DNA of 64,000 nucleotides from a candidate division KSB1 bacterium (GTDB taxonomy: Bacteria; Zhuqueibacterota; Zhuqueibacteria; Residuimicrobiales; Krinioviventaceae), in assembly GCA_034521575.1 (NCBI GenBank), contig JAXHMJ010000003.1:372001-436000 (forward strand). Direction: 5' to 3'. This document shows, piece after piece, positions 34,436-53,348 of this stretch. Position numbers and translations under genes: made by a program. Within the stretch, counting starts at the first letter, position 1. The number at the start of each line of letters is the position of its first letter. Under the pieces are notes generated by a model. The model did not search any database. It was not told the origin of the DNA and saw nothing but the letters and a program-made list of their open reading frames with translations.

Positions 34436-34485
34436 AGGAAAGTGTGGTTTTGGGGGGATATGTGGAAAAAGATATTGGAATCATG

Positions 34486-37400
34486 TATATAACTAAAGTA
34501 TTTATTGCTGTATATTCTGTTTTGCTGCTTATATCAGGACTGCAGGCCAACGATGGGTTTTCTGTGTTGCAGCGCGCCCCTCAGAGTGTGACGGTTCTTT
34601 TTCGGCTGCCGGACACTGTTACCGCTGAGACTATAGAGAACAACGGAAGGGTGCGTTCTGTTCTTAAAGTCGGCCCGAACCCGGTTCCGGATCCGGTTTA
34701 TTCCACGCTGTTCAACCGGCCCGTATCATCCGCGAAAGCCCAGGTGATTGAACAGGTCCGGTACACCGTCCCTTCACCCCCGCCGATTAAATCAACTGAA
34801 TACAGGCTGGACGGCAGTTCCGCGCCGGATTCGGTCGATACATCGATTGCGTATGATCCGCTGACCCTGAAATCTCTGGGCGCCTTTCAAAACAATCCCT
34901 TGTGGAGCCTGGTGGTTCGTCCTGTGGTCTATGATCCCGGTCACCGGGCCTATTCCGTCATGCGTAAACTTGTCATTCAAATTAGTTTCACCCCGATCGA
35001 AACTCCGCTGGTCAACAGCACGATTGATGAAAAAGACTTTATAGATTCCCTGTATCCGCTGCTGCGGTCGGAACAAAAGCCGGTCTCGGCACAGCCGCCG
35101 CTGCAAAAACGTTCTGCTGAAACCGGAGAGCGATGCAAGATCATGGTGTCTGAAGAGGGGTTTTACCGCGTCACCGGCCATGATCTGGATTCGGCCGGAG
35201 TGGATTTGTTTGATATTGATATGCGCAATCTGGCTTTGCGCTGTAATGGTGAGCAGGTGCCCGTGTATGTCAGCGGCTGGCAGGATGGACAGTTTCATGC
35301 CGAAGACTATATTGAATTCTGGGGAACCCCCAGCGCGCAGGTGTTTCCGGAAGCGCCCGATATCGCCATGGATCCGTTTACGCGCGCCAATGTGTACGGG
35401 TTGTCCTGGAACCGCAAAGGGCGCTGGATGAGCGTGGAAAATACAGTGTCTTCCGAATCATTTGATACTGATGTGATTCGGCCGTTTGCATTTTATGATT
35501 CGGTGCATGTGGAGCGCAATTCATTTTATGAACGCTTGTCCTCAGTGCAAACACAGGACATGCGGGATCGCTGGTTCTGGGACGGAGGACTTGAAAGCGG
35601 AGAAAAAAAAGAATATTCTTTTGAATTGATACATCCGGACCAGCAGTCCATTTTACCGGTGTTTGTAAAAATTATGATGTGCGGCCGTACCCCCGGAACG
35701 ACTCAACAACACCAGGCCGGCGCCTATATGAATGACCGTTTTATATCTTCTTCCGCCTGGACCGGGCAGGACCGGGCAATTGTGCAAAATGATGAAACCA
35801 CACCGCTGCGCGGCGCGCATTTGCAGCATGGAAGCAATGTGCTGTCGCTTTTGAATACACGCAGCCCGGATGACTTTGATTATGTGATGCTGAACTGGTT
35901 TCAGGTGCGCTATCCCCGACTGTATCGGGCGCATGCCGGATTGCTCAGGTTCACTGTGCCTCCCCATCAGAAACGCGGTAAATTTCTGTTTCGCATCGAT
36001 GGGTTTGAAAGCGATGAGATTGATCTGTACAAACTCGGACACAGCAAGCTCAGGGGAGCGCAAATCGCCCAAGTGGAGGATTTTGAAGGCAATACATCGT
36101 TTCAGATCAGTTTTCAGGAAAATGTCTATTCGAGTGATATTCACTTCCTTGCCGTAACCCCGGACGCCAGAAAACATCCGGACCGGATTCTCGCGGATAC
36201 AGCCTCGGATTTGTTGTCGGAAACCGGCGATGCGGATTATCTGGTTATTTCACATCCCAAGTTCAGGCCAACCGAAGCCTTGCAGCGGTTTATCGAATAC
36301 CGCCGGGGGACCGGTTATCAGGTGCGGGTTGTCGAAACCACGGATATTTACGATGAATTTAATTACGGACGGCCTTCCTCATTTGCCATACGCGATTATA
36401 TCAAAAGCGTGGCACAGGGCGGCAAACTGCAGTATGTTTTATTGGTGGGGGACGGTTGTTACGAACGGTTGCATATGGCAGCGGATACCCTGGATTATGT
36501 GCCGGTGCATATGCTGCAGACGTTCAAATTTGGCGCCGCTGCCAGCGATTATTGGTACTCTCGGCTGGATGGCGATGACCGCATCCCGGATGTATTTCTC
36601 GGCAGGTTGCCGGTCCGCACGGTGGAAGAACTTGAGACTATTACCAATAAAATCATCGACTATGAACGCGGCGGCGAGGCCGGCGATTGGTACAATCGGT
36701 TATTAATGATATCGGGAAACAACCCGACGTTTAGAACACAGAAACTGGATCTGGCAAAGACACTGTCACCGTCCGTTCAAAAACGCTTTCTGGCCACGTT
36801 AAGAGAATCGGGTCTGGATGATGATCCGTTTTTCGGCGGCACAGCCGATCTTTTGGACTATTTTGACATGGGCTGTTCCATTATGACGTTTCACGGTCAC
36901 GGTGGCGGCGCCGTATGGGCGGATAACGGGCTGCTGCGTCTAAATGATGTGGAGCGTATTTATTCACAGGATCGCTGGCCGGTTATTTTCAGTATGACCT
37001 GTTTTACCGGCGCGTTTGAATCGCCGCACCGGCGCTCCCTGGCGGAAGAACTCTTGTTTTCCGAACAGGGCTGTGTGGCGATGGTGGCTGCCAGCGGCGT
37101 CGGCTGGTTCTGGAATGATTATTATCTGGAAAAGGAAATTTTAAAATATCTGTACGAGAATCCGGGCGAAACCCTCGGGCGGGTGCTGGCAGCCGGTAAA
37201 ATTAATTATCATGCGCATTATATCGGCCCTATTGTCGCTTCGGAACTGGATCAGTATCATTTGCTGGGAGATCCGGCCTTGCGGCTCCCCCTGCCTGACT
37301 CTAAACTTGATATTCAGGCCACACCCCGACTGGTGCAACCGGGCGATACACTGCATGTTGAGGTCAGATCATCATCTGAACAGGGTACTGTATATATGGA

Positions 37401-39216
37401 CGTACAGGACAGCAGTTTTCAGATTTTAGAATCCCGGGCGAAACCGATTCAATCCGGCGCCGCTACATTCAGCTGGCCGGTGCCGTCCCGGCTGAACGGC
37501 CGTACCGGCACGGTTCGCGCATTCTCGATAGACCCTGTCGGCAAGAAAGCGCACGGGGCCAGCCGTTTCAGCATGGACAAGGCGCTGGTGGATTCCGTTT
37601 ATACGCAATTCCCAAACGACAGTTTATATATTCACGCCCGAATCCTGGCTAATGAACCGTTACAGCATGTTTGGGTTCGGGTTATGGGCGATTCCATTGT
37701 CCTGCAGCCGCGGGATCAGAACTGGTATCATGCAGAGCGCGGCCGTTATATCGAATGGAGAGGACTGACTGTCAACTATACCCTTTATGTACAAACCGAA
37801 TCGAATGAAAATTACAAGTTTGCCCTGGCCAAAACCATTCCTTATGGACAGGAACCGGCACTCGTAGATTCTGTTATTTTTCTTGAAGGAAATGACCGTG
37901 TAACGCTTAATACAGGTATTACTAATCTGGGTGATCAGACGGTAACCGATGTACCTGTTGAGTTTAGTGTCCGGACCGCCGGACAAGACGATTGGCAACC
38001 AATCGGGCTTGACAGTGTGACCCTGCGCGCCGGTGCAGAGACGCAGGCATCTGTCCCTTATCCGCCGCCTTTTTCAAATTTTGAGGTGCGGGTTGTCATT
38101 GATCCGGACAGCAGTACGCCGGATGAATACCGGAACAATAATATACTGCAAAATGTTATAGATGGGCATGTGCTGCAGGCGATGCCCGGCTTTGGTTTTC
38201 AGGTTGGCGATTCGCAGCTGACTCGGGTTGATATCACGAATACTGTAAGTTTGAGTGTATCGGCCTCGTCTTTTTCTCAACCAAGCGTTGTTTATGCACA
38301 GCCGGATTCTTTTATCACAATTTCTGAACAGCCGGCGTTGAAAAGGGCGCTGAAATACGGAATTGACTTGCAAATTCGCAATCCCGCGGCTGTAGCACAA
38401 CCGCTTGTTTTATCCTGGACTCTGCCGGATTCTCTGCGTCAGGAGGCGCAGCAGCTTGCGGTTTATCAAAAGCCGGTCAAGGGTTCATATTGGATTCAGC
38501 TGCCGACATCGCTGCAGAACACCGGACTCGAAGCTGAAATTCGTAAAAGTGGAAAATTAGCGGTGCTGAACAGTTCGGATCAGGAACCGCCGGTGGTGTC
38601 GCTGTCAATCGATGGTCAGCCCTATGTGTGGGGAAAATTCATCAGCGCCACACCGCTTTTGGCTCTGCGCATTCAGGATGATAACGGACTTTATCTGTCG
38701 CGTTCCAGTCTGACTGTTTTTCTCGATGATGAGGATATTACAGATGAGGTGGTGCAGGACACCCTGCCTGTTTCTCATCAGCATGTCATCGAGTTGAATC
38801 CGGAATTTGAATCCGGTACGCATCGGTTGGTGGTGCAGGCCGTGGATGCCAGCGGCAATCAGGGTGAGGAAAAAGAGTTTGAATTTACCATCAATCGGGA
38901 GTTTGCACTGGAGTTTTTAGGCAATTATCCAAATCCGTTCGCGGATCAAACGCGTTTTGCCTTTGTTGTGACCCAGCCCTGCCGGGATATACAGCTTGTA
39001 ATATATACCACCTCCGGACGTTTGATCCGGCGTCTATACCCGGGATTGTCAGGTGAGGATCCCAATCCGTTGGGCGCGGATTATCATGAAATATTATGGG
39101 ACGGTCTTGATCATGAGGGGTATCCGGTTGCGAATGGTGTTTATTTTTTCCGTCTGAGCGCTAAACATAAAAAGGGTGTAAAACACGTCGAGGGCAAAAT
39201 TGCAAAGATACAGTAA
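34486..39216 (+). CDS. Gingipain-type C25 peptidase, PorU-like type IX secretion sortase
   Basis: 1577 residues from ATG 34486, where the signal peptide MYITKVFIAVYSVLLLISGLQA begins (an in-frame GTG at 34444 is possible). The centre (~570-950) is a peptidase C25 domain: YRRGTGYQVRVVETTDIY, LLVGDGCY, PDVFLGRLPVRTVEEL, catalytic His805 in FHGHGGG and Cys839 in FSMTCFTGAF, spacing as in gingipains. Beta-rich domains follow, including a CARDB-like stretch. The C terminus is a sorting domain (FLGNYPNPFADQ). In PorU the C25 protease cleaves the sorting domain from cargo at the cell surface and attaches the product. Overlap with a PorV-like gene supports this role, though some C25 proteins are simply cargo. 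Confidence 0.88.
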   Translation, partial: YITKVFIAVYSVLLLISGLQANDGFSVLQRAPQSVTVLFRLPDTVTAETIENNGRVRSVLKVGPNPVPDPVYSTLFNRPVSSAKAQVIEQVRYTVPSPPPIKSTEYRLDGSSAPDSVDTSIAYDPLTLKSLGAFQNNPLWSLVVRPVVYDPGHRAYSVMRKLVIQISFTPIETPLVNSTIDEKDFIDSLYPLLRSEQKPVSAQPPLQKRSAETGERCKIMVSEEGFYRVTGHDLDSAGVDLFDIDMRNLALRCNGEQVPVYVSGWQDGQFHAEDYIEFWGTPSAQVFPEAPDIAMDPFTRANVYGLSWNRKGRWMSVENTVSSESFDTDVIRPFAFYDSVHVERNSFYERLSSVQTQDMRDRWFWDGGLESGEKKEYSFELIHPDQQSILPVFVKIMMCGRTPGTTQQHQAGAYMNDRFISSSAWTGQDRAIVQNDETTPLRGAHLQHGSNVLSLLNTRSPDDFDYVMLNWFQVRYPRLYRAHAGLLRFTVPPHQKRGKFLFRIDGFESDEIDLYKLGHSKLRGAQIAQVEDFEGNTSFQISFQENVYSSDIHFLAVTPDARKHPDRILADTASDLLSETGDADYLVISHPKFRPTEALQRFIEYRRGTGYQVRVVETTDIYDEFNYGRPSSFAIRDYIKSVAQGGKLQYVLLVGDGCYERLHMAADTLDYVPVHMLQTFKFGAAASDYWYSRLDGDDRIPDVFLGRLPVRTVEELETITNKIIDYERGGEAGDWYNRLLMISGNNPTFRTQKLDLAKTLSPSVQKRFLATLRESGLDDDPFFGGTADLLDYFDMGCSIMTFHGHGGGAVWADNGLLRLNDVERIYSQDRWPVIFSMTCFTGAFESPHRRSLAEELLFSEQGCVAMVAASGVGWFWNDYYLEKEILKYLYENPGETLGRVLAAGKINYHAHYIGPIVASELDQYHLLGDPALRLPLPDSKLDIQATPRLVQPGDTLHVEVRSSSEQGTVYMDVQDSSFQILESRAKPIQSGAATFSWPVPSRLNGRTGTVRAFSIDPVGKKAHGASRFSMDKALVDSVYTQFPNDSLYIHARILANEPLQHVWVRVMGDSIVLQPRDQNWYHAERGRYIEWRGLTVNYTLYVQTESNENYKFALAKTIPYGQEPALVDSVIFLEGNDRVTLNTGITNLGDQTVTDVPVEFSVRTAGQDDWQPIGLDSVTLRAGAETQASVPYPPPFSNFEVRVVIDPDSSTPDEYRNNNILQNVIDGHVLQAMPGFGFQVGDSQLTRVDITNTVSLSVSASSFSQPSVVYAQPDSFITISEQPALKRALKYGIDLQIRNPAAVAQPLVLSWTLPDSLRQEAQQLAVYQKPVKGSYWIQLPTSLQNTGLEAEIRKSGKLAVLNSSDQEPPVVSLSIDGQPYVWGKFISATPLLALRIQDDNGLYLSRSSLTVFLDDEDITDEVVQDTLPVSHQHVIELNPEFESGTHRLVVQAVDASGNQGEEKEFEFTINREFALEFLGNYPNPFADQTRFAFVVTQPCRDIQLVIYTTSGRLIRRLYPGLSGEDPNPLGADYHEILWDGLDHEGYPVANGVYFFRLSAKHKKGVKHVEGKIAKIQ

Positions 39217-40225
39217 AATAGTTTTGATATGCCTTTTGCTTTCGGCTTTGCGGGCGTCCGGCGGCGGCCGCTATGCCGGTTCTTTTTTAGAATGGGGGAC
39301 CGGCGCCCGGCCCATGGCCCTGGCTGATGCTGCAGTGGCAATGGCCGGCAACGGAGAAACATTCTATTACAATCCCGCGTCTCTGGTGTTTCTGCAGCGC
39401 GCGTTTGTCAATTTGATGTATGCGCCCACCTTTGGATCCTTGTCCGACCCCATGGCTCATTATCACATAGCCGGTCTGTCTATGCCTCTCGAATCCGAAA
39501 CCGCATTTGCATTTCACTGGGCGCGCTTTTCGGTGAATGACATTCCGGTTTATCCCGAACTGCAGGGTAAATCGTTTTCTGATCGCAATTATCAGTTGGC
39601 CTTGCGCCCCGACGGGACGCAGCTTGGGACGATCCGGGATACAGAGGATGCATTGTACCTGTCAGTGGCGAAAAATATAACGTTTCCCATGCCTCTGGGC
39701 TGGTGGTATGATGATTTGCCGGTGGATTTGCCCCTGGGCGTGAATTTCAAACTGATCCGGCAGGTGTTGGGTGAGCATGATGCCAGCGCCCTGGGTGTGG
39801 ATGTGGGTGGAATGCTGCGTTTTCATTTGGGACGTTTTTTGCAAAACCGAAAGATCGGACGTGTTGCTTTGGGTGTATCTGTCAAGGATATCAGCCGGAC
39901 CGAATTGAAATGGGATACGGAACACCGTGACCGTATCATGACGACACGATCCTGGGGCCTGCATTATCAGCATCCGATCCGGCAGTGGGATGCAGAACTC
40001 AATTTCTATTATACCAAACGGGTTCAGTACGAGTCCAGGTATCTGGGCGGTGTTGAATTTACTTTAAAGAATCTGGCCCTGCGAATTGGCCGCAACGCGG
40101 ACGGATTAACGGCGGGCGCCGGTTTGTACTGGTGGCGTCTGCACCTAAATTATGCATTTGTGGCCAATGATTTCCAGGATGTTCACAGGTTGAGTTGCGG
40201 TATAAATTTGGGAGATTTTCGATGA
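39200..40225 (+). CDS. PorV/LptO-like outer-membrane protein of the type IX system
   Basis: 341 residues from TTG 39200, which overlaps the C25 stop by 17 bases and has GAGGG at 39190-39194. A short signal peptide is followed by GTGARPMALADAAVAMAGNGETFYYNPASL, the hallmark (given here in part) of PorV/UPF0164 barrels. Alternating amphipathic strands continue to the end. PorV binds sorting domains of cargo and, with PorU, forms the attachment complex. The translational overlap with the PorU-like gene fits this job. FadL-like fold is the general alternative. Confidence 0.82.
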   Translation: MQRYSKIVLICLLLSALRASGGGRYAGSFLEWGTGARPMALADAAVAMAGNGETFYYNPASLVFLQRAFVNLMYAPTFGSLSDPMAHYHIAGLSMPLESETAFAFHWARFSVNDIPVYPELQGKSFSDRNYQLALRPDGTQLGTIRDTEDALYLSVAKNITFPMPLGWWYDDLPVDLPLGVNFKLIRQVLGEHDASALGVDVGGMLRFHLGRFLQNRKIGRVALGVSVKDISRTELKWDTEHRDRIMTTRSWGLHYQHPIRQWDAELNFYYTKRVQYESRYLGGVEFTLKNLALRIGRNADGLTAGAGLYWWRLHLNYAFVANDFQDVHRLSCGINLGDFR

Positions 40226-41373: not shown

Positions 41374-41570
41374 TTTTTGTGATCGCCTGTGGGATAAATG
41401 TCATCAATGTCCCTCAGGTGTGTCACTGTTATGTGCTTTTGGGGAAAAATGACTCACTCATTTGACCGGTATGTTAAGACCTCTGTTGATGTCTCTATCA
41501 TTCGTTATAAGTTAATTTAAGTGAAATAAAAACAATAATAAAATCGGTTGCCGCGGGTATGGAGCTAATA

Positions 41571-41604
41571 TGGTACAAAAGGTACCAATGAGGAAAAAGG
41601 TACC
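41571..41604 (+). promoter_or_regulatory. GGTAC dyad cluster, candidate enhancer-binding-protein site
   Basis: TGGTAC-AAAAG-GTACCA is a perfect 6+5+6 dyad (41571-41587), and a further GGTACC lies at 41599-41604. The dyad sits ~130 bases upstream of the -12 element at 41707, a usual distance for activators of sigma-54 RNA polymerase. The activator gene is not in the window. The rest of 41374-41775 is AT-rich and non-coding. Confidence 0.5.
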
Positions 41605-41693
41605 GATTATTGTGATTATTAAGCAGGCCTATTATAAAGATGGAAAGTATATAAACTCAATAAAAATAGTATAATAAAATTGAAATATTAGTA

Positions 41694-41709
41694 TGGCATA
41701 GATGTTGCA
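41694..41709 (+). promoter_or_regulatory. Sigma-54-like -24/-12 promoter of the first subunit gene
   Basis: TGGCATAGATGTTGCA matches the consensus TGGCAC-N5-TTGCA with one difference and has the required 12-base GG-to-GC spacing (GG 41695, GC 41707). It lies 68 bases before the start codon at 41776. Confidence 0.62.
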
Positions 41710-41775
41710 AATGAAAAAGTAACTTAACATAGAAAACAAATCATCACTTTTAAATTATTAATATGGAGGTTTTAA

Positions 41776-42324
41776 ATGAAACGGTATCTTGAGGTGTTGT
41801 GTGTTGTGGTGTTGGCGTTGGGTGTGGTAGCGGGTGTTCAGGCGCAGACAGCTACGCATGATCTGAGTATCACTGTAAACGGATTTCAGCTGATTGGTTT
41901 GGAGGGTGGCGGCAGGCCTGTCGCTTTTGAGGTCGGCGCTCCCGCTAGTGCGGGTGAAAAACCGGTTATCGTCAGCAGCAGCGGCGTGAGTGATAATTAT
42001 TTGCTTTATTCGTCAATTTTCAGCACCACGGACAACAAGATTACAGCAGCGTTGGATGCTGATGTGGAATCTCCCCTGACCTTGAGCGTGTCTGCAGCAG
42101 CTGCCACAGGCGGCGGCGGAGACAAGGGTGATGTGCAGACCGGCGTCGTATTGTCAAGTGCTGCGGCTGATGTTATTACCGGTATCGGAAGCTGCTGGAC
42201 AGGTTTGGGCACCAATGGCGCCCAGTTGACTTATTCGCTTGCGATCCCGGATGATGTGACTGATTTGGATGATGTAAATGACCAGCCGCTCACAGTAACC
42301 TATACCATTACAAATACAAATTAG
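41776..42324 (+). CDS. Small exported protein, candidate major surface subunit
   Basis: 182 residues with signal peptide MKRYLEVLCVVVLALGVVAGVQA; GGAGG precedes the ATG. The mature part begins THDLSITVNGFQLIGLEGG and ends LTVTYTITNTN. It is visibly homologous to the 161-residue protein at 46944-47429: both have SIFS...KIT, an AA.D.I.G(I/V)G segment and a final TYTI strand. The fold looks like an Ig-type or DUF4402/WxL-like beta sandwich (tentative). Gene order (subunit, terminator, chaperone, usher) resembles fimbrial operons in which the major subunit is made in excess. Gly/Ala/Ser-rich in the middle (AAAATGGGGDKGD). Confidence 0.7.
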   Translation: MKRYLEVLCVVVLALGVVAGVQAQTATHDLSITVNGFQLIGLEGGGRPVAFEVGAPASAGEKPVIVSSSGVSDNYLLYSSIFSTTDNKITAALDADVESPLTLSVSAAAATGGGGDKGDVQTGVVLSSAAADVITGIGSCWTGLGTNGAQLTYSLAIPDDVTDLDDVNDQPLTVTYTITNTN

Positions 42325-42347
42325 CAGGGATTTAGTGTTCCGGTTGA

Positions 42348-42376
42348 AAAGGGATAGTTTTTTCTATCCCTTTTTT
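42348..42376 (+). terminator. Terminator/attenuator between subunit and chaperone genes
   Basis: AAAGGGATAG, loop TTTTTT, CTATCCCTTT and T run. It would leave most transcripts as subunit-only messages, with read-through into the chaperone and usher genes. Confidence 0.88.
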
Positions 42377-42434
42377 ATTATATTGCAGCAATACTTTTTA
42401 TAATCAGTGGTAAATGAATGAATCGGGAAAAACC

Positions 42435-43235
42435 ATGATCGGAACCTTGAAAAAACTTACACTGCTTGCTTTTTTAATAAGCGCCGGTTTTGTTCATTCC
42501 GGTATTGTCGTATTAGGTGGACTCACTCATGAACAGCAATTGTCTCCGGGTGAAGAATACAAGGGTGTGGTGGAACTTGAAAATCTTACAGATGAACCGG
42601 GACGTGTGCGTATTTATCAGACAGACTATTTTTTTAACGCAGCAGGAGAAACGCATTACCCCGAGCCGGGTAGTCTGGATCGTTCTAATGCTGAATGGAT
42701 CGAGTTTACACCCAAAGAATTGATTATTGAACCCAGGCAACGAACGGTTGTTAATTATCAATTGACAGTCCCGGAATCAGAATCTCTCAGCGGCACGTAT
42801 TGGAGTATGTTAATGGTTGAGAATGTGCCGGAAATTGATCCGGATCAGATTCGGGATGATGCCGTCACCGTTCAGTCGCGTATTCGTTACGGGATTCAGA
42901 TGGTGACCAATATCGGCGCGACAGGTACAAAAAAGATTACATTTCTACAGACAGAATTTGTTGAAAAAGAAAATCGCTTTTTTCTTCAAGTGGATTACGA
43001 AAATAAGGGGACGCGTATATTGCGGCCCCTGATGAATCTTGAGGTGTATAACGATGACGGTGAATTGGTGGGGCGATTTGAACATAAAAAGCAAAAATCC
43101 TATCCGGGGACTTCGAATCGAATTCATATCGAACTTGAGGATGTACAAACCGGTACCTATCAGGCGTTGTTGATTGCAGACTGTGGACAGGATGATTTGT
43201 TCGGCATAAGGTTTACGCTGGAACTCAATAAATGA
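42435..43235 (+). CDS. PapD-like periplasmic chaperone
   Basis: 266 residues from ATG 42435, directly before the signal peptide (MIGTLKKLTLLAFLISAGFVHS); an ATG at 42414 is also in frame. The mature part is predicted all-beta, with an N-terminal Ig-like domain. Its pattern VELENLTDEPGRVRIYQTDY, then SNAEWIEFTPKELIIEPRQ, RTVVNYQLTVPE and LSGTYWSMLMVE follows the fimbrial chaperone order (strand with subunit, proline-rich WxxxxP, LSGTYWSM). A second beta domain follows (~145-266). In Gram-positive bacteria DUF916/WxL-binding proteins look similar. It overlaps the usher-like gene by four bases, which argues for a chaperone-usher pair. Confidence 0.68.
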   Translation: MIGTLKKLTLLAFLISAGFVHSGIVVLGGLTHEQQLSPGEEYKGVVELENLTDEPGRVRIYQTDYFFNAAGETHYPEPGSLDRSNAEWIEFTPKELIIEPRQRTVVNYQLTVPESESLSGTYWSMLMVENVPEIDPDQIRDDAVTVQSRIRYGIQMVTNIGATGTKKITFLQTEFVEKENRFFLQVDYENKGTRILRPLMNLEVYNDDGELVGRFEHKKQKSYPGTSNRIHIELEDVQTGTYQALLIADCGQDDLFGIRFTLELNK

Positions 43236-45937
43236 GATATGGGGTATGGACAATTATTATCTTTTTATGTGTTTTGGTGATGAAAATAAACGGGGAGACT
43301 TTGCCGGTTTCCGTGTTACACCATCAAGGTTCTGTTCTCTCTGTCAATGACGGAAACGACGTGACCGCGCGGTTTCAGCTTTTAAACAAGAGTTCTGCTG
43401 TTCAAACTTTAAAAAGTAAAGTCTTGCTGCCTTTAAATTGGCGCCTTGTCATCGAACCGGTTGGGTTTGATCTGCAGCCGCATCAAAAATGTATAGATCT
43501 GATTAGTTTTTATATCCCTAAAAACACAAAAGCGGCTCAATATCCCGTTCAGTATTTGCTCATTGACGCGAAGAATCCCGATAAAACCCGTTCGTTTACG
43601 CTTTGGATTCAGGTAAAAGAAAATCATCACTTGATTTTAAATCCTGTTTCGATCCCTGACTATGTTCGTGCGGGAACTCGAATTGAGGCTGTTTATAATA
43701 TTTGTAACGCTGGAAATTTACAGGATACCGTGATAATCGATGTTGATGGCGCACAGATAATCAATCAATTTGATCCCGTTATTTTGTCCCCTGATTCCTG
43801 CTATTTGTTTCAGCTGTCGGCGCGCACCGACAAAAATATAACATCCGCCGGCAAAAAACGGATTCACTTGCGGGCACAGGTTAAAAATATGGACTCGACA
43901 TGGGTTTCAAGCACTCATCTGGTGGATGTGCTGCCTGTGAAAACAGGCAAAGTCGATTCTTATTTTGATTTTCCTTTGCGCACTAAACTTGCCTACTTTT
44001 ACTCTGATTATACCGCTCGGCAAAAATCGGGACCACAATTTCAAGTTCAGGGATCAGGATATGTTGACAAGAACAAAAATCATCATCTGATGTTAAACAT
44101 GCGGGGACCGGATTATTATGGTTATTCGTCTCTCGGCCAATATGATTTGTATGCCCTGAGTTATCAATTTAAAAAGTTGCGGGTCGATGTGGGAGATCAC
44201 GCAAAACGGGTAACACAGCTCACCGAAAACCATCGGTTTGGCAGAGGCGTTTCTGTTAGTCTGAATTTAGATCACCTTCAGGTGGGTGGCTTTTTTCAAC
44301 AACCCAGATGGCGACCGGAGTTTGAAAAAGAATATGCGGTACATAGTAGAGTTCATTTGAATTCCAGAGAATACCTCGGAATTAATGTGCTTCAAAAAGA
44401 ATATTCTAATTACTCGGCTCAACTCATCAGTTACGTTGGTCAAGTGAGTCCTTTTAAATTTTTGAGAACCCGTATTGAAATGTCGACAAGTACGGCGCAA
44501 GATAAGAGCGGTACAGGTGCGGACATTTCAGTCCACACCGAGCTTGGAAAGCTTCGTGCAAATGCCAGTATTCTGTATGCTGATAAAAATTATCAGGGTT
44601 ATTATAATGATTCTGAATATATTTCAGCCAATGCATCCTATCATTTAACTAATAACTGGCTTTTTACTTTAAATTTGCAAAAGGACGCCGATAATCTGGA
44701 TCAGGACACGACATTATATGTTGCCCCCTATTCCGAAAGATTGCAATTCGGTGTTCAGCATCGATTGACCGGAAATGTGTATCTTTTTGGCGCCTATCGG
44801 CAGATTATGAGAAAAGATCGACTGCCGCGTCACTTGTTCTCTTATGAAGAACAGACGATTCATTTGCGCAGTTCATTAAAACAAAATAACTGGAGATTAT
44901 CAGTTTACAGTGATTTTGGTTATTTTCAGAATTTGTTACCGGGTTTTGAGAAAATAAATTCTCTCTTGTTCAAGTTGAATTCCAATGTGTCTTATCAACC
45001 GTCTATCAATCAGTTTTATCGCCTGTTTTTCTATTATGAAAACAGCAAGCAGTATTCTATGCAGCGGAACAGTACTTTAAATATCGGTTTTCACGCCAGA
45101 ATTCATATTAGGCCGGATTGGAAAATTCAGGTCAGCATGCAGAATGGATTTAAACTGGAAGAATATTACCGGGATCGCGATTTGTTTCAGGCTGATATCG
45201 AGTATACACTGCCGTTTAAGCATAGTATAGAATTTCAGGCAAGGTATTCGCTATTGCGTTATCGTACCCATTTAAAGGATAAAGCCTTTATTATCAATTA
45301 TCGCGCCCCCTTTGGTATACCATTATACAAAAAAGAAGATTTGGCACAAATAAGGGGGAAAATCAGCAGTCAAAACGGCGAAAATATCAATAATATTATT
45401 GTCAGACTGAACGGATATACCGCAATTACCGATACGGCGGGATATTTTGTGTTTTCCGGTATCAAACCGGGGCTCCACTTTATATCATTGGATCGATCCA
45501 CTCTTGGAATGCAACATGTCACCACGATTCCGCTCCCCATTAAAATACAAGCACTGCCCGAGGGAGATAATTATTTTGGGCTCACCCTTACAACAGGGGC
45601 AATCGTCTCGGGACGCTTGCATGTCTTACAAGACGGCAAGAAAAATCCGCTCTCGACTCTGGATACACCCTGTTCTCAAATTGTTATTGAAATGCGGCAA
45701 GGGGAGCAAGTCTTGAGAAGAATTGCCAACAAGGATGGGAGTTTTGAATTTGAAAATACAAGACCCGGCAATTGGCAATTGAAAGTATATGATAATTGTA
45801 TCCCTGATACCCATCAACTGGAACGCAGCGAATGGGCTTTTCAACTGAATCCGGGTGGTCAAAAGCATATAGAGATTATGCTTCAAAGGAAAGAACGTAA
45901 AATTCAATTTCAGCAATGGGATGATGTTGTTGATTGA
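43232..45937 (+). CDS. Usher-like outer-membrane protein
   Basis: 901 residues with a signal peptide. N-terminal ~230 residues form two Ig-like domains (NEW3-like; LNKSSAVQTLKSKVLLP, AVYNICNAGNLQDTVII). Residues ~240-720 are amphipathic strands of an outer-membrane barrel (YFYSDYTARQKSGPQFQVQG ...YSLLRYRTHLKDKAFIINY). The C terminus has two carboxypeptidase-regulatory-like beta domains (IRGKISSQNGENINNIIVRL, then IVSGRLHVLQDGK). Barrel followed by small Ig-like domains parallels ushers of the CFA/alternate type. Translation is coupled to the chaperone gene. I cannot confirm family membership from sequence alone; another barrel transporter is the alternative. Confidence 0.6.
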   Translation: MRYGVWTIIIFLCVLVMKINGETLPVSVLHHQGSVLSVNDGNDVTARFQLLNKSSAVQTLKSKVLLPLNWRLVIEPVGFDLQPHQKCIDLISFYIPKNTKAAQYPVQYLLIDAKNPDKTRSFTLWIQVKENHHLILNPVSIPDYVRAGTRIEAVYNICNAGNLQDTVIIDVDGAQIINQFDPVILSPDSCYLFQLSARTDKNITSAGKKRIHLRAQVKNMDSTWVSSTHLVDVLPVKTGKVDSYFDFPLRTKLAYFYSDYTARQKSGPQFQVQGSGYVDKNKNHHLMLNMRGPDYYGYSSLGQYDLYALSYQFKKLRVDVGDHAKRVTQLTENHRFGRGVSVSLNLDHLQVGGFFQQPRWRPEFEKEYAVHSRVHLNSREYLGINVLQKEYSNYSAQLISYVGQVSPFKFLRTRIEMSTSTAQDKSGTGADISVHTELGKLRANASILYADKNYQGYYNDSEYISANASYHLTNNWLFTLNLQKDADNLDQDTTLYVAPYSERLQFGVQHRLTGNVYLFGAYRQIMRKDRLPRHLFSYEEQTIHLRSSLKQNNWRLSVYSDFGYFQNLLPGFEKINSLLFKLNSNVSYQPSINQFYRLFFYYENSKQYSMQRNSTLNIGFHARIHIRPDWKIQVSMQNGFKLEEYYRDRDLFQADIEYTLPFKHSIEFQARYSLLRYRTHLKDKAFIINYRAPFGIPLYKKEDLAQIRGKISSQNGENINNIIVRLNGYTAITDTAGYFVFSGIKPGLHFISLDRSTLGMQHVTTIPLPIKIQALPEGDNYFGLTLTTGAIVSGRLHVLQDGKKNPLSTLDTPCSQIVIEMRQGEQVLRRIANKDGSFEFENTRPGNWQLKVYDNCIPDTHQLERSEWAFQLNPGGQKHIEIMLQRKERKIQFQQWDDVVD

Positions 45938-45940
45938 TTC

Positions 45941-45956
45941 TGGTACAGCTTTTGCT
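45941..45956 (+). promoter_or_regulatory. Sigma-54-like -24/-12 promoter of the second small gene
   Basis: TGGTACAGCTTTTGCT matches TGGYAC-N5-TTGCW, GG (45942) to GC (45954) spacing 12, preceded by a pyrimidine. It lies 4 bases past the usher stop and 115 bases before the ATG at 46070. Confidence 0.6.
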
Positions 45957-46069
45957 TAGTATTGTGTATATTGTCAGGTTTAGCGGCTATTTGAATAAAC
46001 CAAATTAACGAGTGTTGAATTTCTACTCGTATCGCGGAATCGACTAAAATATGATTTTAAAGGTGTTTT

Positions 46070-46576
46070 ATGAAAATGTGGAAATGTTGCGCATCGGTTC
46101 TGATATTGTTATCCGGCTTGGCTTGTGCCCAAAATACATACATAAATGTTGATGGAAACTGGAATCTGAATATTGATGTGTCTGACTTGACCGGTGGCCC
46201 GGGAAGCAATATTCAATCCATTTATAACAGCACAAATGAAGGGGCCTTGATTGATCTTGATGTTCTTAAAGCCCGAGGTGAATGGTGGTATTGGTTTTTT
46301 CGTTGGGATTGGCAGGTCGAGGTCCATATACAAAGCGTTAATTGGCAACCTGATTGGGAAATATGGGTCAGACGAACAGGAGATGGGGATTTTTTTGTAG
46401 GAAATATTCAAGGGGGTGAAACATTTCAGCAGTTGAATTCAATGGGGATAAATTTTTGTTCCGGCAGTCATAACCATAATAATATTCCTCTGGAATATGA
46501 GTTGAGAGGGGTATCTCTTCCTTTGGAGGCCGGTCAGTACTCTGCAATTGTTTATTACACATTAACCGAGTTGTAA
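46070..46576 (+). CDS. Small exported protein, candidate second surface subunit
   Basis: 168 residues; AAAGGTG precedes the ATG and a signal peptide ends at LACA. The mature protein is short, beta-rich and very aromatic in the middle (GEWWYWFFRWDWQVEVHI). It ends QYSAIVYYTLTEL, similar to the TYTITNTN and TYTIVSE ends of the two other small proteins of the locus, and has IPLEYELRG near the end in the place of their LTY/LNY strand. Homology to them is therefore likely but weaker. A minor or tip subunit is possible (inference). Confidence 0.62.
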   Translation: MKMWKCCASVLILLSGLACAQNTYINVDGNWNLNIDVSDLTGGPGSNIQSIYNSTNEGALIDLDVLKARGEWWYWFFRWDWQVEVHIQSVNWQPDWEIWVRRTGDGDFFVGNIQGGETFQQLNSMGINFCSGSHNHNNIPLEYELRGVSLPLEAGQYSAIVYYTLTEL

Positions 46577-46604
46577 ATACGACACTGTCAAACTCATAAA
46601 AAAA

Positions 46605-46634
46605 TTGACATTTGATATTCAGGATCGGTATAAT
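46605..46634 (+). promoter_or_regulatory. Near-consensus sigma-70 promoter in the 340-bp gap
   Basis: TTGACA (46605-46610), 18-base spacer, TATAAT (46629-46634). It would give a ~300-base leader for the third subunit gene or a small RNA. The rest of 46635-46890 is AT-rich and shows no gene. Confidence 0.65.
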
Positions 46635-46894
46635 GTGTATAATATTTGGAAAATTACAAAGCAGAGAGATGCAGTGTAAAAAAAATGAACATAATATAAA
46701 AAGATCCTAAAATACACTTAAGATGCAAACGCATTAAAAACAATTAATAAAGTATCAGTGTCCGTAAAAATGTTGAAAATTGAACACATTTGATTGAAAG
46801 AAGTATCATTGTTTAAAAAATGGTAGAAATCAGGACATTTTAACTATAAAATAAACAGTAAATAAGGAGGGTGTGGTGTAAAGCAAGTAACGTC

Positions 46895-46910
46895 TGGCAT
46901 GAGATTTGAA
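46895..46910 (+). promoter_or_regulatory. Sigma-54-like -24/-12 promoter of the third small gene
   Basis: TGGCATGAGATTTGAA: the -24 half is good and preceded by a pyrimidine, the -12 half has GA instead of GC, with correct 12-base spacing. It lies about 36 bases before the ATG at 46944, so the leader would be short, with AAGGAGG at 46931-46937. Confidence 0.5.
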
Positions 46911-46943
46911 TAATTCTTGAACGTAAAGCCAAGGAGGATTCTC

Positions 46944-47429
46944 ATGCACAGAGTTACACGTGTTTTTGTCTTTTGCCTTTTTATTCCAGTCTATATTTTG
47001 GCCGCCTCAAATAGCTGCAGCCATTCGGTTTCTATTCGTATTATCCCTGTTGATCATTTGGAGCTTGAGGGCGGTAATGTTGATTTTACATTTTACAGTG
47101 ATAAAAATTCATCTAATCAAGGTCATGCCGAGCAAATAGATAATTCCTGCCGACTGCAGTGGAGCATTTTTTCAAACGAACGCAAAATAACGGTACAAAG
47201 TGATAATTCAAATTCTGAATTTAAGCTTTATGTCCAGGCCGAACAAGTCGAGAAAGGGCAATCTGCCGGGAAAATAAGGCTTGGAAACAGTCCCGCTGCG
47301 CAGGATTTTATCAGAGGGGTCGGTCGTTCCCGTGGATCTTGTAATTTGAACTATAATGCGATCACCCGGTTGAAAAACCAGGAGAAATCAGAAATCCACC
47401 ACATTACCTATACCATTGTCTCTGAATAA
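46944..47429 (+). CDS. Small exported protein homologous to the 41776 subunit
   Basis: 161 residues from ATG 46944, with a strong AAGGAGG site; an upstream start at 46917 would overlap that site. Signal peptide MHRVTRVFVFCLFIPVYILA. The mature part aligns by eye with the 182-residue protein of the locus: SHSVSIRIIPVDHLELEGG versus THDLSITVNGFQLIGLEGG, WSIFSNERKIT versus SSIFSTTDNKIT, AAQDFIRGVG versus AAADVITGIG, and ITYTIVSE versus VTYTITNTN. It has more cysteines and charge. Probably a paralogous subunit with its own promoter and terminator. Confidence 0.68.
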   Translation: MHRVTRVFVFCLFIPVYILAASNSCSHSVSIRIIPVDHLELEGGNVDFTFYSDKNSSNQGHAEQIDNSCRLQWSIFSNERKITVQSDNSNSEFKLYVQAEQVEKGQSAGKIRLGNSPAAQDFIRGVGRSRGSCNLNYNAITRLKNQEKSEIHHITYTIVSE

Positions 47430-47457
47430 AAGACCACACACAATATCTTGATATATC

Positions 47458-47485
47458 GGCCCGGGAAAATCTCCGGGCTTTTTTA
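47458..47485 (+). terminator. Terminator of the third subunit gene
   Basis: GCCCGG, loop GAAAATCT, CCGGGC and a T run. It closes the surface-fibre locus. Confidence 0.85.
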
Positions 47486-47582
47486 CGTCTGGTATATCAA
47501 TAATTTCATTTGAATTCAGTCAGAAATTATTTATGTTTAGGACATTGTTATTCATTCTTTTAAACCCTACAGAAAGGACCCT

Positions 47583-50090: not shown

Positions 50091-53000
50091 ATGACACACG
50101 ATAAACCCCATCTGCACGACGCGGACGCTATTCAACTTGTTGTTGTACATCCGGATCAAAACCTGAAACAATGCATTTTTCAAGGCCTCAGGCAGAAGCA
50201 ATACCCGATCAGAGGCGCGGAAACCGCCAAAGCCGGTCTGGATTCACTGGGTGAAAGTGAGACCGAGATTCTGCTTCTGAGTTCCGAGTGCCCGGATATG
50301 ACGTGGAATGAAGTGATGTCTGAACTCCAGGTGCGTCGTCTCTGTACTCCCGTACTCTTGATGACGCCGCCGCAGCAGACTCGTTTGCATGCGGCTATGC
50401 TTCAAACCGGAGCAGCAGATTGCGTGGTTGTCGATTCGGAGCATATTGAACTTTTAGTGATTAGAGTCAATAAAATTATCAGTGATGTGACTGAACGACG
50501 AAAGACTCTGCAGCAGATCGGAGATGGCATGCGGCGATATGAAAAGCTGTTTTTAAATTCTTTGATGGGGATTGGGCTGGCCAGGCCTGACGGACAAATC
50601 ATTGAAACCAACGACGCCTTTGCTACGATCCTCGGATATACCCGGGACGAATTGTTGCGAGTAAAATCATCCGATTTATATAAAAATATTGCAGACCGCG
50701 AGCGTGCTATCCAAATACTGGATAAAAACGCTGTGTTGAGCGATTTTGAAACCACCTTGAAGCGAAAAGACGGAAAAGAGGTGCATGTTTTGCTCTCAAG
50801 TTCAAAAATTGAATATAACGGCGAAACCTTTTATCAAACCACCTGTCTGGATATCAGCGCTCGTAAACAGGCTGAAAATCAGTTGCGTGCCCAGGAAAAA
50901 TTATTTCAGGATATGCTCAAAGCAGTGCCCGACAGCATCTCGGTGCATGATACAGATCTGAATATTGTGTACTGCAACTGGAACGGATTTAGCGCGATAC
51001 CGGAGGACAAACGTATCCTGAACAGCAAATGCTATAAAACACTTCGGGGTTATCATAAACAATGCCCGGATTGCCGGGCTGGGAAAGTCATTCAGTCGAA
51101 AAAAACTCATCGTTCAGAGATTGAACTTTCTGACGGCAAGTGGATGGATCTCCGTATCATCCCGCTTTTGGATCATAACGGAAACTGCACCCATTTTGTG
51201 GAATGGGTGCGAGATATTAGCGACCGCAAGCAACTGGAACAGCAGCAAAGAGACTATGTGCGCGAACTGGAGCTTATCACCGATACACTGGTGAAAAGCA
51301 GCCGTATCACTGATCTAAATGCATTATGCCAATACCTGGTGGATCAAATCCACTCTTTTAATCCAAAGACCTATGTGCTGATTTCCATGTACGAGCCGGA
51401 AACCGGACATGTCAAGGTCCGAGCCATGGCCGGTTACGGAAAGATACTCAACCGTATTTACAAGATGATCGGCGCTGACAAAGACAGTTTTAATTTTCAT
51501 CCTGAAGACATGGGGGAACTCACAAAGCTTTATGTCACCGGTAAACTGGTGCAAGTGCCGGGCGGCGCCTATGATCTACTGGAACACAAAGTGCCCAAAT
51601 CTATTTGTGACTCTATTGAAAAGCTGTTGAATGTCGATGCCTCGTACGGGGTGGGATTTTCTCTGAATAATGAACCCTATGGCGGTATTGTCATTTTGAC
51701 GCAAAAAGGGCACAGCGTTCAGTTTAAATCCGCCATCGAAACCATTGCCAGTCACGCGTCGCTCATTCTTCACCGACGTCAGGCAGAACAAGCCGCTGAA
51801 AGCCTGAACGAACGCATTCAGGCCGGTCTAAAGGCCGGTAATCTGGCCTGGTGGGAATTGCAGCTGCCTTCAGGTAAGGTGCAATTTGATGATATGAAAG
51901 CCACGGCTCTGGGATACAAGCCGGAGTCTTTTACACAGTATCAGGACTTTACAACATTGATCCATCCGGAGGACCGTGAAAAGACCATACAGGCCATGCG
52001 CGATCATTTGGACGGCAAAACCGACCGTTATCACGTGGAATACCGCATCAGGGCGAGAGATGAGTCTTATAAATGGTACCGTGATATGGGCAGTATTGTC
52101 GAACACAGCGCCGGAAATGGAACGATGCGGCTTATTGGCATCGTGGAAGACATCACAGAAAGCAAACAGTCAGAGCTCGAACGTGCCAAACTGGAAGCGC
52201 AGCTGCATCGGTCGCAAAAACTGGAGACGATCGGCACGCTGTCCGGCGGTATTGCCCATGATTTCAATAATATTCTCACTCCAATTCTCGGATATGCAGA
52301 AATGGGGAGGGATGCATTGGAGGCGTCTCATCCGGTGCGTGAGGATTTGCAGTATATCATAGAGGGCGCCGAGCGCGCCAAAGAGTTGATTCAGCAGATT
52401 ATGACCTTTAGCCGCAACGAGTCGAAACAAAAGACGCCGCTTTATCTGCATACGGTTGTCAGGCAGGCAGTGAAACTGATGCGTGCCACCATTCCAACGA
52501 CTGTAGACATTCGAAAAAACATTGATACAACATGTCCGGCTGTATTGGCTGATGCCACACAAATGCACCAGGTGATGGTGAATTTGTGTACCAATGCTTA
52601 CCAAGCTCTATCGGACAAAGGCGGATATTTAAAGATTGAACTGAACCAAACAACTGTCGATGAAAAAACCGCATTGCTTGATCCGGAGTTAAAAGTTGGC
52701 GATTATGTTCAACTTGTCGTCCAGGATAACGGCGTTGGCATGGATGAAAACACCATGAATCGAATTTTTGAACCCTTTTTCACCACCCAAAAAGGGGGCC
52801 GGGGTACGGGGTTGGGGCTGTCAGTGGTGCATGGGATCGTCAAAGGCCACAACGGCGCGATCGTTGTCGAAAGCGAACCGAACCAGGGCACGCTGTTCAG
52901 CGTCTATATCCCGGTTTCGCAGGCGGACGTGCAGGATGAATCTCAGACCCAAAACATTCCCGCCGGTAAAGGTAAAATATTGGTTGTGGATGATGAGACA

Positions 53001-53348
53001 GCCATTGCGTCAATGCTGAATCGAATGCTGAAAAAACTGGGATATCAGGTTGACAGTTATACCCATAGTCCGGATGCTCTTGATGTATTAAGGCACAAAA
53101 AGGCGCAATACGATCTGGTGTTGACGGATTTAACCATGCCGGAACTCGACGGGATTGAACTAGCGCAAGAAATCCGAAAGCTGGACAAGAAACCGGCTGT
53201 TGTGTTGATGACCGGTTATAGCGAACAGGTCAGGGTGGAACAGTCCAAGCATCTTTTTGAACGAGTTCTGGCCAAACCGATTAACCGGCGTGAAATCGCG
53301 TTGATAGTGCAGGAGACAATAAGAAAAACAAACCGGGAGGCTGGTTGA
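50091..53348 (+). CDS. Hybrid sensor histidine kinase with degenerate receiver, PAS, GAF, HisKA, HATPase and receiver domains
   Basis: 1085 residues, no membrane segment, so probably cytoplasmic. An N-terminal receiver-like domain (~12-130) lacks the acceptor Asp (ILLLSSECPDM where LLD is expected). PAS 1 follows (~145-265), PAS 2 with a CPDC pair (~275-390), a GAF domain (~400-560), PAS 3 (~575-700), HisKA with [15 protein letters not shown], HATPase_c with QDNGVGMDENTM and [13 protein letters not shown], and a C-terminal receiver (KILVVDDETAIA, LVLTDLTMPELDG). The single-domain regulator starts directly after its stop. Signal unknown; GAF/PAS suggest small-ligand or redox sensing. Confidence 0.9.
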   Translation: MTHDKPHLHDADAIQLVVVHPDQNLKQCIFQGLRQKQYPIRGAETAKAGLDSLGESETEILLLSSECPDMTWNEVMSELQVRRLCTPVLLMTPPQQTRLHAAMLQTGAADCVVVDSEHIELLVIRVNKIISDVTERRKTLQQIGDGMRRYEKLFLNSLMGIGLARPDGQIIETNDAFATILGYTRDELLRVKSSDLYKNIADRERAIQILDKNAVLSDFETTLKRKDGKEVHVLLSSSKIEYNGETFYQTTCLDISARKQAENQLRAQEKLFQDMLKAVPDSISVHDTDLNIVYCNWNGFSAIPEDKRILNSKCYKTLRGYHKQCPDCRAGKVIQSKKTHRSEIELSDGKWMDLRIIPLLDHNGNCTHFVEWVRDISDRKQLEQQQRDYVRELELITDTLVKSSRITDLNALCQYLVDQIHSFNPKTYVLISMYEPETGHVKVRAMAGYGKILNRIYKMIGADKDSFNFHPEDMGELTKLYVTGKLVQVPGGAYDLLEHKVPKSICDSIEKLLNVDASYGVGFSLNNEPYGGIVILTQKGHSVQFKSAIETIASHASLILHRRQAEQAAESLNERIQAGLKAGNLAWWELQLPSGKVQFDDMKATALGYKPESFTQYQDFTTLIHPEDREKTIQAMRDHLDGKTDRYHVEYRIRARDESYKWYRDMGSIVEHSAGNGTMRLIGIVEDITESKQSELERAKLEAQLHRSQKLETIGTLSGGIAHDFNNILTPILGYAEMGRDALEASHPVREDLQYIIEGAERAKELIQQIMTFSRNESKQKTPLYLHTVVRQAVKLMRATIPTTVDIRKNIDTTCPAVLADATQMHQVMVNLCTNAYQALSDKGGYLKIELNQTTVDEKTALLDPELKVGDYVQLVVQDNGVGMDENTMNRIFEPFFTTQKGGRGTGLGLSVVHGIVKGHNGAIVVESEPNQGTLFSVYIPVSQADVQDESQTQNIPAGKGKILVVDDETAIASMLNRMLKKLGYQVDSYTHSPDALDVLRHKKAQYDLVLTDLTMPELDGIELAQEIRKLDKKPAVVLMTGYSEQVRVEQSKHLFERVLAKPINRREIALIVQETIRKTNREAG

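Follow-up and report, generated by a model that had tools for sequence, protein, structure and literature searches.

A candidate WxL-type, chaperone-usher-like surface assembly cassette from a KSB1 bacterium recurs across many phyla

A five-gene cassette found in a 64,000-nucleotide stretch of a candidate division KSB1 genome (hereafter, the window) most probably encodes a WxL-type, chaperone-usher-like system that assembles a surface fibre or a surface coat; we put the probability of this reading, of which secretion and fibre formation are the predicted part, at about 0.78. The assembly cassette itself is real, widespread and chaperone-usher-like in architecture, and its soluble parts are closer to WxLIP and WxL proteins than to the chaperone-usher classes. 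It is thus a candidate for a fourth, “WxL-type” chaperone-usher-like pathway that forms a separate sequence family.

The five genes (A1, chaperone, usher-like barrel, B and A2) lie on the same strand in a block between positions 41374 and 47490 (Table 1), and all five products have a signal-peptide-like start. As the first-pass annotation had pointed out, the chaperone and barrel genes share four bases (ATGA), and three short exported proteins flank this pair. The hairpin after A1 would favour an excess of A1 over the assembly machinery; together with the promoter in front of A2 and the hairpin at the cassette end, it would let A1 and A2 be made apart from the machinery.

Table 1. Positions of cassette features in the 64,000-nucleotide window
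Feature	Position	Strand	Basis or remark
A1, putative major subunit, 182 aa	41776..42324	+	signal peptide; family A7, 50 aligned members
Terminator-like hairpin, A1/chaperone gap	42346..42375	+	consensus match only
Chaperone-like protein, 273 aa (266 aa if ATG 42435)	42414..43235	+	signal peptide and two Ig-like domains; WxLIP-like
Chaperone putative donor segment/G1 strand, residues 149-167	42858..42914	+	conservation; model unordered before strand 158-167
Usher-like outer-membrane protein, 901 aa	43232..45937	+	ORF, AlphaFold2 model, fold search
Usher N-terminal Ig/NEW3-like domains (two), residues 26-234	43307..43933	+	model; NPCBM_assoc (NEW3) in relatives
Usher beta-barrel, residues 244-700, 26 strands, no inserted plug	43961..45331	+	model, DSSP
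Usher C-terminal prealbumin-like domains (two; CTD1 705-799, CTD2 818-886)	45344..45889	+	model, Pfam
B, putative minor (tip or base) subunit, 168 aa	46070..46576	+	relative of A; of WxL domains more weakly
Perfect sigma-70-like promoter 5' of A2, TTGACA-18-TATAAT, 12/12	46605..46634	+	consensus match only
A2, second A-type subunit, 160 aa (ATG 46947) or 170 aa (TTG 46917)	46947..47429	+	A homology
Terminator-like hairpin, cassette end, 3' of A2	47458..47479	+	consensus match only

The AlphaFold2 model of the usher-like protein, built with 52 sequences (pLDDT 89, pTM only 0.66), contains, in this order, a signal peptide, two Ig-like domains, a barrel and two C-terminal sandwich domains. Known ushers have a 24-stranded barrel with an NTD, a plug and two CTDs. 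The 24-strand-type barrel proposed earlier held as to fold but not as to detail: DSSP assigns 26 strands, and since the longest internal gap between strands is ca. 13 residues, no plug domain is inserted. In a Foldseek search of the PDB, the top seven matches were all FimD chains (E 4e-14 to 5e-12), and PapC was also retrieved (E 4e-10); other outer-membrane barrels (LptD, BtuB, ZnuD, porins) appeared at 1e-7 or weaker. TM-scores with FimD were modest (0.24-0.31 by query, 0.31-0.41 by target), as expected for floppy multi-domain ushers, and judging by the model the two proteins appear to share architecture at a distance. In FimD and PapC, gating is the task of the plug domain; candidates for gating the plug-less barrel here are the two modelled N-terminal Ig domains, for which an NPCBM_assoc (NEW3) match was found in 39 of 52 usher relatives.

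One can ask whether the barrel is instead a TonB-type or porin transporter located beside unrelated small exported proteins. CarboxypepD_reg, the Pfam match at the C-terminus of the window usher, also occurs on TonB receptors, and porin-like Pfam matches were obtained for the window protein (E 0.24) and for a few relatives. A TonB-type barrel had been set beforehand as the outcome that speaks against the whole proposal, but the fold search placed FimD and PapC first, with BtuB, ZnuD and PirA trailing by orders of magnitude. The lack of a plug insertion and a gene order with chaperone and subunits that is kept across phyla further argue against a transporter, which we consider extremely improbable.

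The chaperone model (71 sequences; pLDDT 94, pTM 0.84) consists of two Ig domains, i.e., it has the form of a two-domain periplasmic chaperone of the PapD fold. The label PapD-like given to this protein does not hold as stated, since both fold matches and profiles place it nearer to WxLIP than to PapD. The best PDB match (Foldseek) was WxLIP of Enterococcus (E 4.5e-14), followed by CfaA (1.4e-9), Caf1M (3e-9), FimC (7e-9) and CsuC (2e-8), with CupB2 and PapD also among the matches with E ≤2e-7; the TM-scores, 0.4-0.6, in part reflect generic two-Ig folds. An hmmsearch detected WxLIP in the PDB with E 6e-4 over 219 positions (44-262 of 271). With hhalign, whose single-pair statistics are not database-calibrated, so that the evidence is the contrast between pairs and not absolute values, the chaperone family matched WxLIP at 95.6% (1.2e-8; 214 columns, both domains), versus 9% for classical chaperones, 26% for archaic chaperones and 0.5% for EcpB. 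Single WxLIP Pfam models are weak on this family (16/71 members), and the window chaperone returned only sub-threshold WxLIP_PGBD and fn3_5 matches; at E 0.1, PapD was among the families listed for none of the 71 relatives. In the model, the window chaperone ends after the second Ig domain, and it has no C-terminal membrane helix.

Residues G-T-Y-W and R158 of the chaperone are invariant in all 71 aligned members. Segment 139-157, which follows the invariant GTYW strand and leads into the strand starting at R158, is strandless in the free model and hydrophobic at positions 151 (93%) and 153 (100%). In PapD-type chaperones, the subunit fold is completed by the G1 strand. A loop of WxLIP is predicted to order as a strand, thereby completing the WxL sandwich (PMC10599100). 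Archaic chaperones anchor the subunit carboxylate via an invariant arginine, Arg89 of CsuC (PMC4654587); by analogy, our guess is that R158 may serve this purpose here.

No Pfam or NCBIfam match was found for A1, B or A2. In A1, a hydrophobic alternating strand directly follows the signal peptide, and a TVTYTIT strand is present at the C-terminus. Positions 30/32/34 and 174/176/178 are hydrophobic in 50 out of 50 aligned A members, and the final strand, with alternating hydrophobic and polar residues, stops 2-4 residues before the C-terminus. Judged from the alignment, the N-terminal strand and the last, C-terminal strand of A would be the two elements needed for donor-strand exchange. By hhalign, the A and B profiles are related (96.3%, 1.4e-9), as are B and WxL domains (86.9%, 4.2e-6); A versus WxL was not significant (5.5%). 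The WxL model PF13731 was silent in 10 cassette-bearing genomes while matching its control, and the double WxL motif was not found in the cassette subunits, B being related to WxL at the profile level only. Similarity of A to FimA was not significant (35%, with mostly the signal peptide aligned); B scored within 7-10% against the classical class, and the score with SCPU subunits was 0.6%. Fimbrial-subunit Pfam families were absent among those listed for singly scanned relatives of A (50) and B (43). A match of the B profile to MS2 coat protein (best E 1.6e-5, to a tandem dimer, local) was judged fortuitous.

Pfam searches and profile-profile comparisons, both with working controls, led us to reject plain membership in the classical, archaic or alternative chaperone-usher classes. 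No PF00577 (Usher) match was obtained for the window protein or among the 25 families listed for its relatives, nor was one present in 13 cassette-bearing whole genomes, including the window's own; PF00345 was absent from 81 genomes of the phylum. Both models matched the E. coli control. PapD, Usher and fimbrial families were all missing among those listed for relatives of the chaperone (71), A (50), B (43) and the usher (52). In hhalign comparisons, the usher scored 7% against classical ushers, 1.3% against EcpC and 39% against archaic ushers, the last over a local stretch of 103 columns. Positive controls built from only 2-6 sequences, far fewer than the cassette families have, linked classical and archaic ushers at 99.9% (4.5e-36) and classical and archaic chaperones at 88% (3e-6). 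An SCPU search was silent in cassette genomes, but so was its control; the same model later matched in other genomes. As far as sequence goes, the cassette lies outside the definition of every chaperone-usher class tested. The original proposal of a chaperone-usher-like system stands with respect to the Ig chaperone model and to the barrel, whose best fold matches are FimD and PapC, but not with respect to a tested known class.

The cassette could still belong to the archaic (sigma) or alternative (alpha) class as an ordinary member that has diverged strongly. The fold matches to FimD, CfaA and CsuC and the weak CooC_C matches at the usher C-termini (4/52 members) are consistent with this, and archaic systems have been reported from Deinococcus-Thermus and Cyanobacteria (PMC4654587). 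Against it, PF00345 and PF00577 were not found in the window proteins, their relatives or the searched genomes, and the scores against archaic and SCPU families fall far below those of the controls. We regard such divergence within a known class as quite unlikely, and prefer a separate, WxL-type family.

In the phylum of the window genome, full-length usher relatives (25-29% identity) are present in a scattered minority of genomes, where they are adjoined by chaperone (ca. 40% identity), A and B homologues. The gene order that the first-pass annotation suggested looking for in this phylum is found there, and it is not confined to the KSB1 lineage. When the window usher alone served as query, a genome scan retrieved no relatives, and the conserved chaperone alignment was needed; with it, a scan of species genomes revealed at least 111 relatives, out of which 80 loci were kept for cassette comparison. 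Almost all of these loci show the order A(1-7)-[B]-chaperone-usher on one strand. Among the 56 scorable loci, i.e., those with enough upstream sequence, 54 have the usher as the first family gene behind the chaperone, 54 contain one to seven A copies and 35 contain a single B. The arrangement is more than chance, since homologues of all four protein families are found in this order in dozens of genomes.

The 80 loci carry ca. 18 phylum labels, taken from the titles of sequence records. Many of these loci come from metagenome bins, which may be contaminated, but the set also contains isolates: Thiocapsa roseopersicina, T. marina, Thiohalocapsa marina, Thiococcus pfennigii, Orenia metallireducens and Deinococcus deserti. 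In D. deserti, the cassette genes are located on a plasmid and annotated as “hypothetical”, “FimB/Mfa2 family fimbrial subunit” and “carboxypeptidase regulatory-like”. The chaperone tree groups loci by phylum, with some mixing (24 label changes versus 39.5 in shuffles).

The block is more AT-rich than its neighbours, as had been noted at first sight: its G+C content is 0.411, compared to 0.512 in the 9.6 kb to the left and 0.477 in the 10 kb to the right, and the lowest-G+C 5.65-kb segment of the window starts at position 41500. A1 alone has a G+C content of 0.52, and the AT-richness is confined to the remainder of the block. Cassettes elsewhere show no shift relative to their own flanks (58 loci, mean +0.004, sd 0.029), so the shift is peculiar to this genome. 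Recent acquisition by transfer would fit both the AT shift, a comparison made within the 64-kb window, and the patchy distribution; the chaperone tree neither confirms transfer nor names a donor. A phage origin was rejected, viral contigs being devoid of relatives.

In the mechanism that we propose, A and B would be beta-sandwiches short of one strand. The F1-G1 segment of the chaperone would fill this gap, as predicted for WxLIP and WxL and known for PapD-type chaperones, and the resulting complexes would dock in the periplasm on the periplasmic Ig domains of the usher. There, the N-terminal strand of the next subunit may displace the chaperone strand (donor-strand exchange), and the subunit chain would pass through the barrel during exchange to reach the cell surface. 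The fibre would consist mainly of A, encoded by one or more gene copies, and B would be a single minor subunit.

Alternatively, A and B may be exported as single proteins that form a surface coat or attach to peptidoglycan, a role proposed for the WxL proteins of Gram-positive bacteria, with no fibre being formed. In favour of this, the closest match of the chaperone is WxLIP, which has cell-wall proteins as partners, and fusions of related chaperone domains with LysM-like repeats occur in several genomes of the phylum. However, up to seven A copies per cassette, the N-terminal alternating hydrophobic strands of A and a dedicated FimD-like barrel suit polymerisation better, and the window chaperone has no C-terminal membrane anchor. 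Single export is, on this evidence, unlikely, and assembly through the barrel is favoured.

What sets this reading apart from the earlier one is its scope, many phyla instead of one lineage, and the kinship to WxLIP/WxL. In the literature, chaperone-usher pili belong essentially to Proteobacteria, apart from outliers in Cyanobacteria and Deinococcus-Thermus (PMC4654587). If numerous other phyla possess a parallel system, the picture of surface-fibre assembly beyond Proteobacteria would have to change, a plug-less usher would become available for mechanistic work, and both the origin of donor-strand chaperones and the role played by WxLIP in Gram-positive bacteria could be put to the test. Literature searches of open-licence papers found no description of this system, and the cassette is invisible to standard annotation, its proteins being currently labelled “hypothetical protein”, “carboxypeptidase regulatory-like” or “FimB/Mfa2”. 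We give about even odds to the broadest interpretation, that of a very widespread fourth chaperone-usher-like pathway whose chaperone is of the WxLIP family and whose subunits are related to WxL; in diderms, it would be the counterpart of the WxL system of Gram-positive bacteria. If true, this would point to a single donor-strand chaperone as the ancestor of both PapD-type chaperones and WxLIP, with loss or gain of the usher at a monoderm/diderm transition.

The cassette links two systems so far studied separately, chaperone-usher pili and Gram-positive WxLIP/WxL. With classical pili (type 1 Fim and P pili), it shares the barrel's best PDB fold matches, FimD and PapC, and FimC among the chaperone matches, but hhalign scores for usher, chaperone and B are 7-10%, there is no PapD or Usher Pfam match and the plug is missing. 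Archaic and alternative pili (Csu; CS1/CFA, ECP) have the same gene content and order, the same chaperone fold, an usher barrel with two C-terminal domains and subunits that, by sequence, end in the last strand; unlike theirs, the cassette usher has no plug and, where they have the NTD, carries two Ig/NEW3-like domains, and sequence kinship is not detectable. The WxL/WxLIP clusters of Lactobacillales (DUF916/DUF3324, PF06030/PF11797; WxL PF13731) likewise encode small exported beta-sandwich proteins, a fold predicted for the subunits here, and a two-Ig-domain partner. By profile, the cassette chaperone is related to WxLIP across its two domains and B is related to WxL, and a donor-like partner strand is predicted to complete WxL (PMC10599100). 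In contrast to WxLIP, the cassette chaperone has no C-terminal membrane anchor; the subunits, unlike WxL, lack the WxL motif and a PF13731 match; and the cassette, unlike the Lactobacillales clusters, includes an outer-membrane usher and resides in hosts that have an outer membrane.

The gene of the putative major subunit, A1, has a host-like G+C content of 0.52, whereas that of the remaining cassette is 0.41-0.43, a contrast that can be attributed either to strong codon selection on the major subunit or to a separate origin. Close upstream of the cassette, a PorV-like gene follows that of a PorU-like-looking protein of 1590 residues, which carries a C-terminal sorting domain of the type-IX type (assignments by reading only).

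Features near the cassette and in other records
Feature	Location	Genome
PorU-like-looking protein	window 34444-39216	
PorV-like protein	window 39200-40225	
A1	window 41776-42324	
Remaining cassette	window 42414-47429	
PAS-kinase-like ORF	window 50091-53348	
Chaperone-like domain + LysM-like repeats	L138:2624-4330	G036
Chaperone-like domain + LysM-like repeats	L139:2596-4311	G039
Chaperone-like domain + LysM-like repeats	L140:2157-3779	G026
Usher with TPR-like part	L014:294-3545	
WxLIP gene	CP069367.1:101782-102444	

SPOR domains were found on 4 of the 52 aligned usher relatives (E to 3e-11), and the usher of locus L014 is extended at its C-terminus by a TPR-like part; such additions may tether some ushers to peptidoglycan. 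Proteins of 540-570 residues at loci L138, L139 and L140 combine a domain of the cassette-chaperone family with LysM-like repeats (YxVxxGDxLSKIAxxxYGDxxxY) and are possibly peptidoglycan-anchored kin of the chaperone. In L139, two usher-type C-terminal domains lie between these parts, the chaperone-like domain being N-terminal; in L138 and L140, a barrel-looking protein of ~620 residues is encoded next door.

In several genomes of the phylum (loci L015, L026, L028 and L030), the usher gene is followed by genes for sensor proteins in which a transmembrane motif, xIYWxxExxRDxxxFxxGxxxxRxxxPxxxxxWxR, occurs repeatedly. The flanks of 40 loci carry a blast-linked cluster that includes kinases and regulators, a raw count with no background estimate.

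A gene for WxLIP, the Gram-positive partner protein nearest to the cassette chaperone, is present in a record labelled as a Klebsiella pneumoniae plasmid. Its product is 72.5% identical to the Enterococcus protein; the record is probably mislabelled or contaminated.
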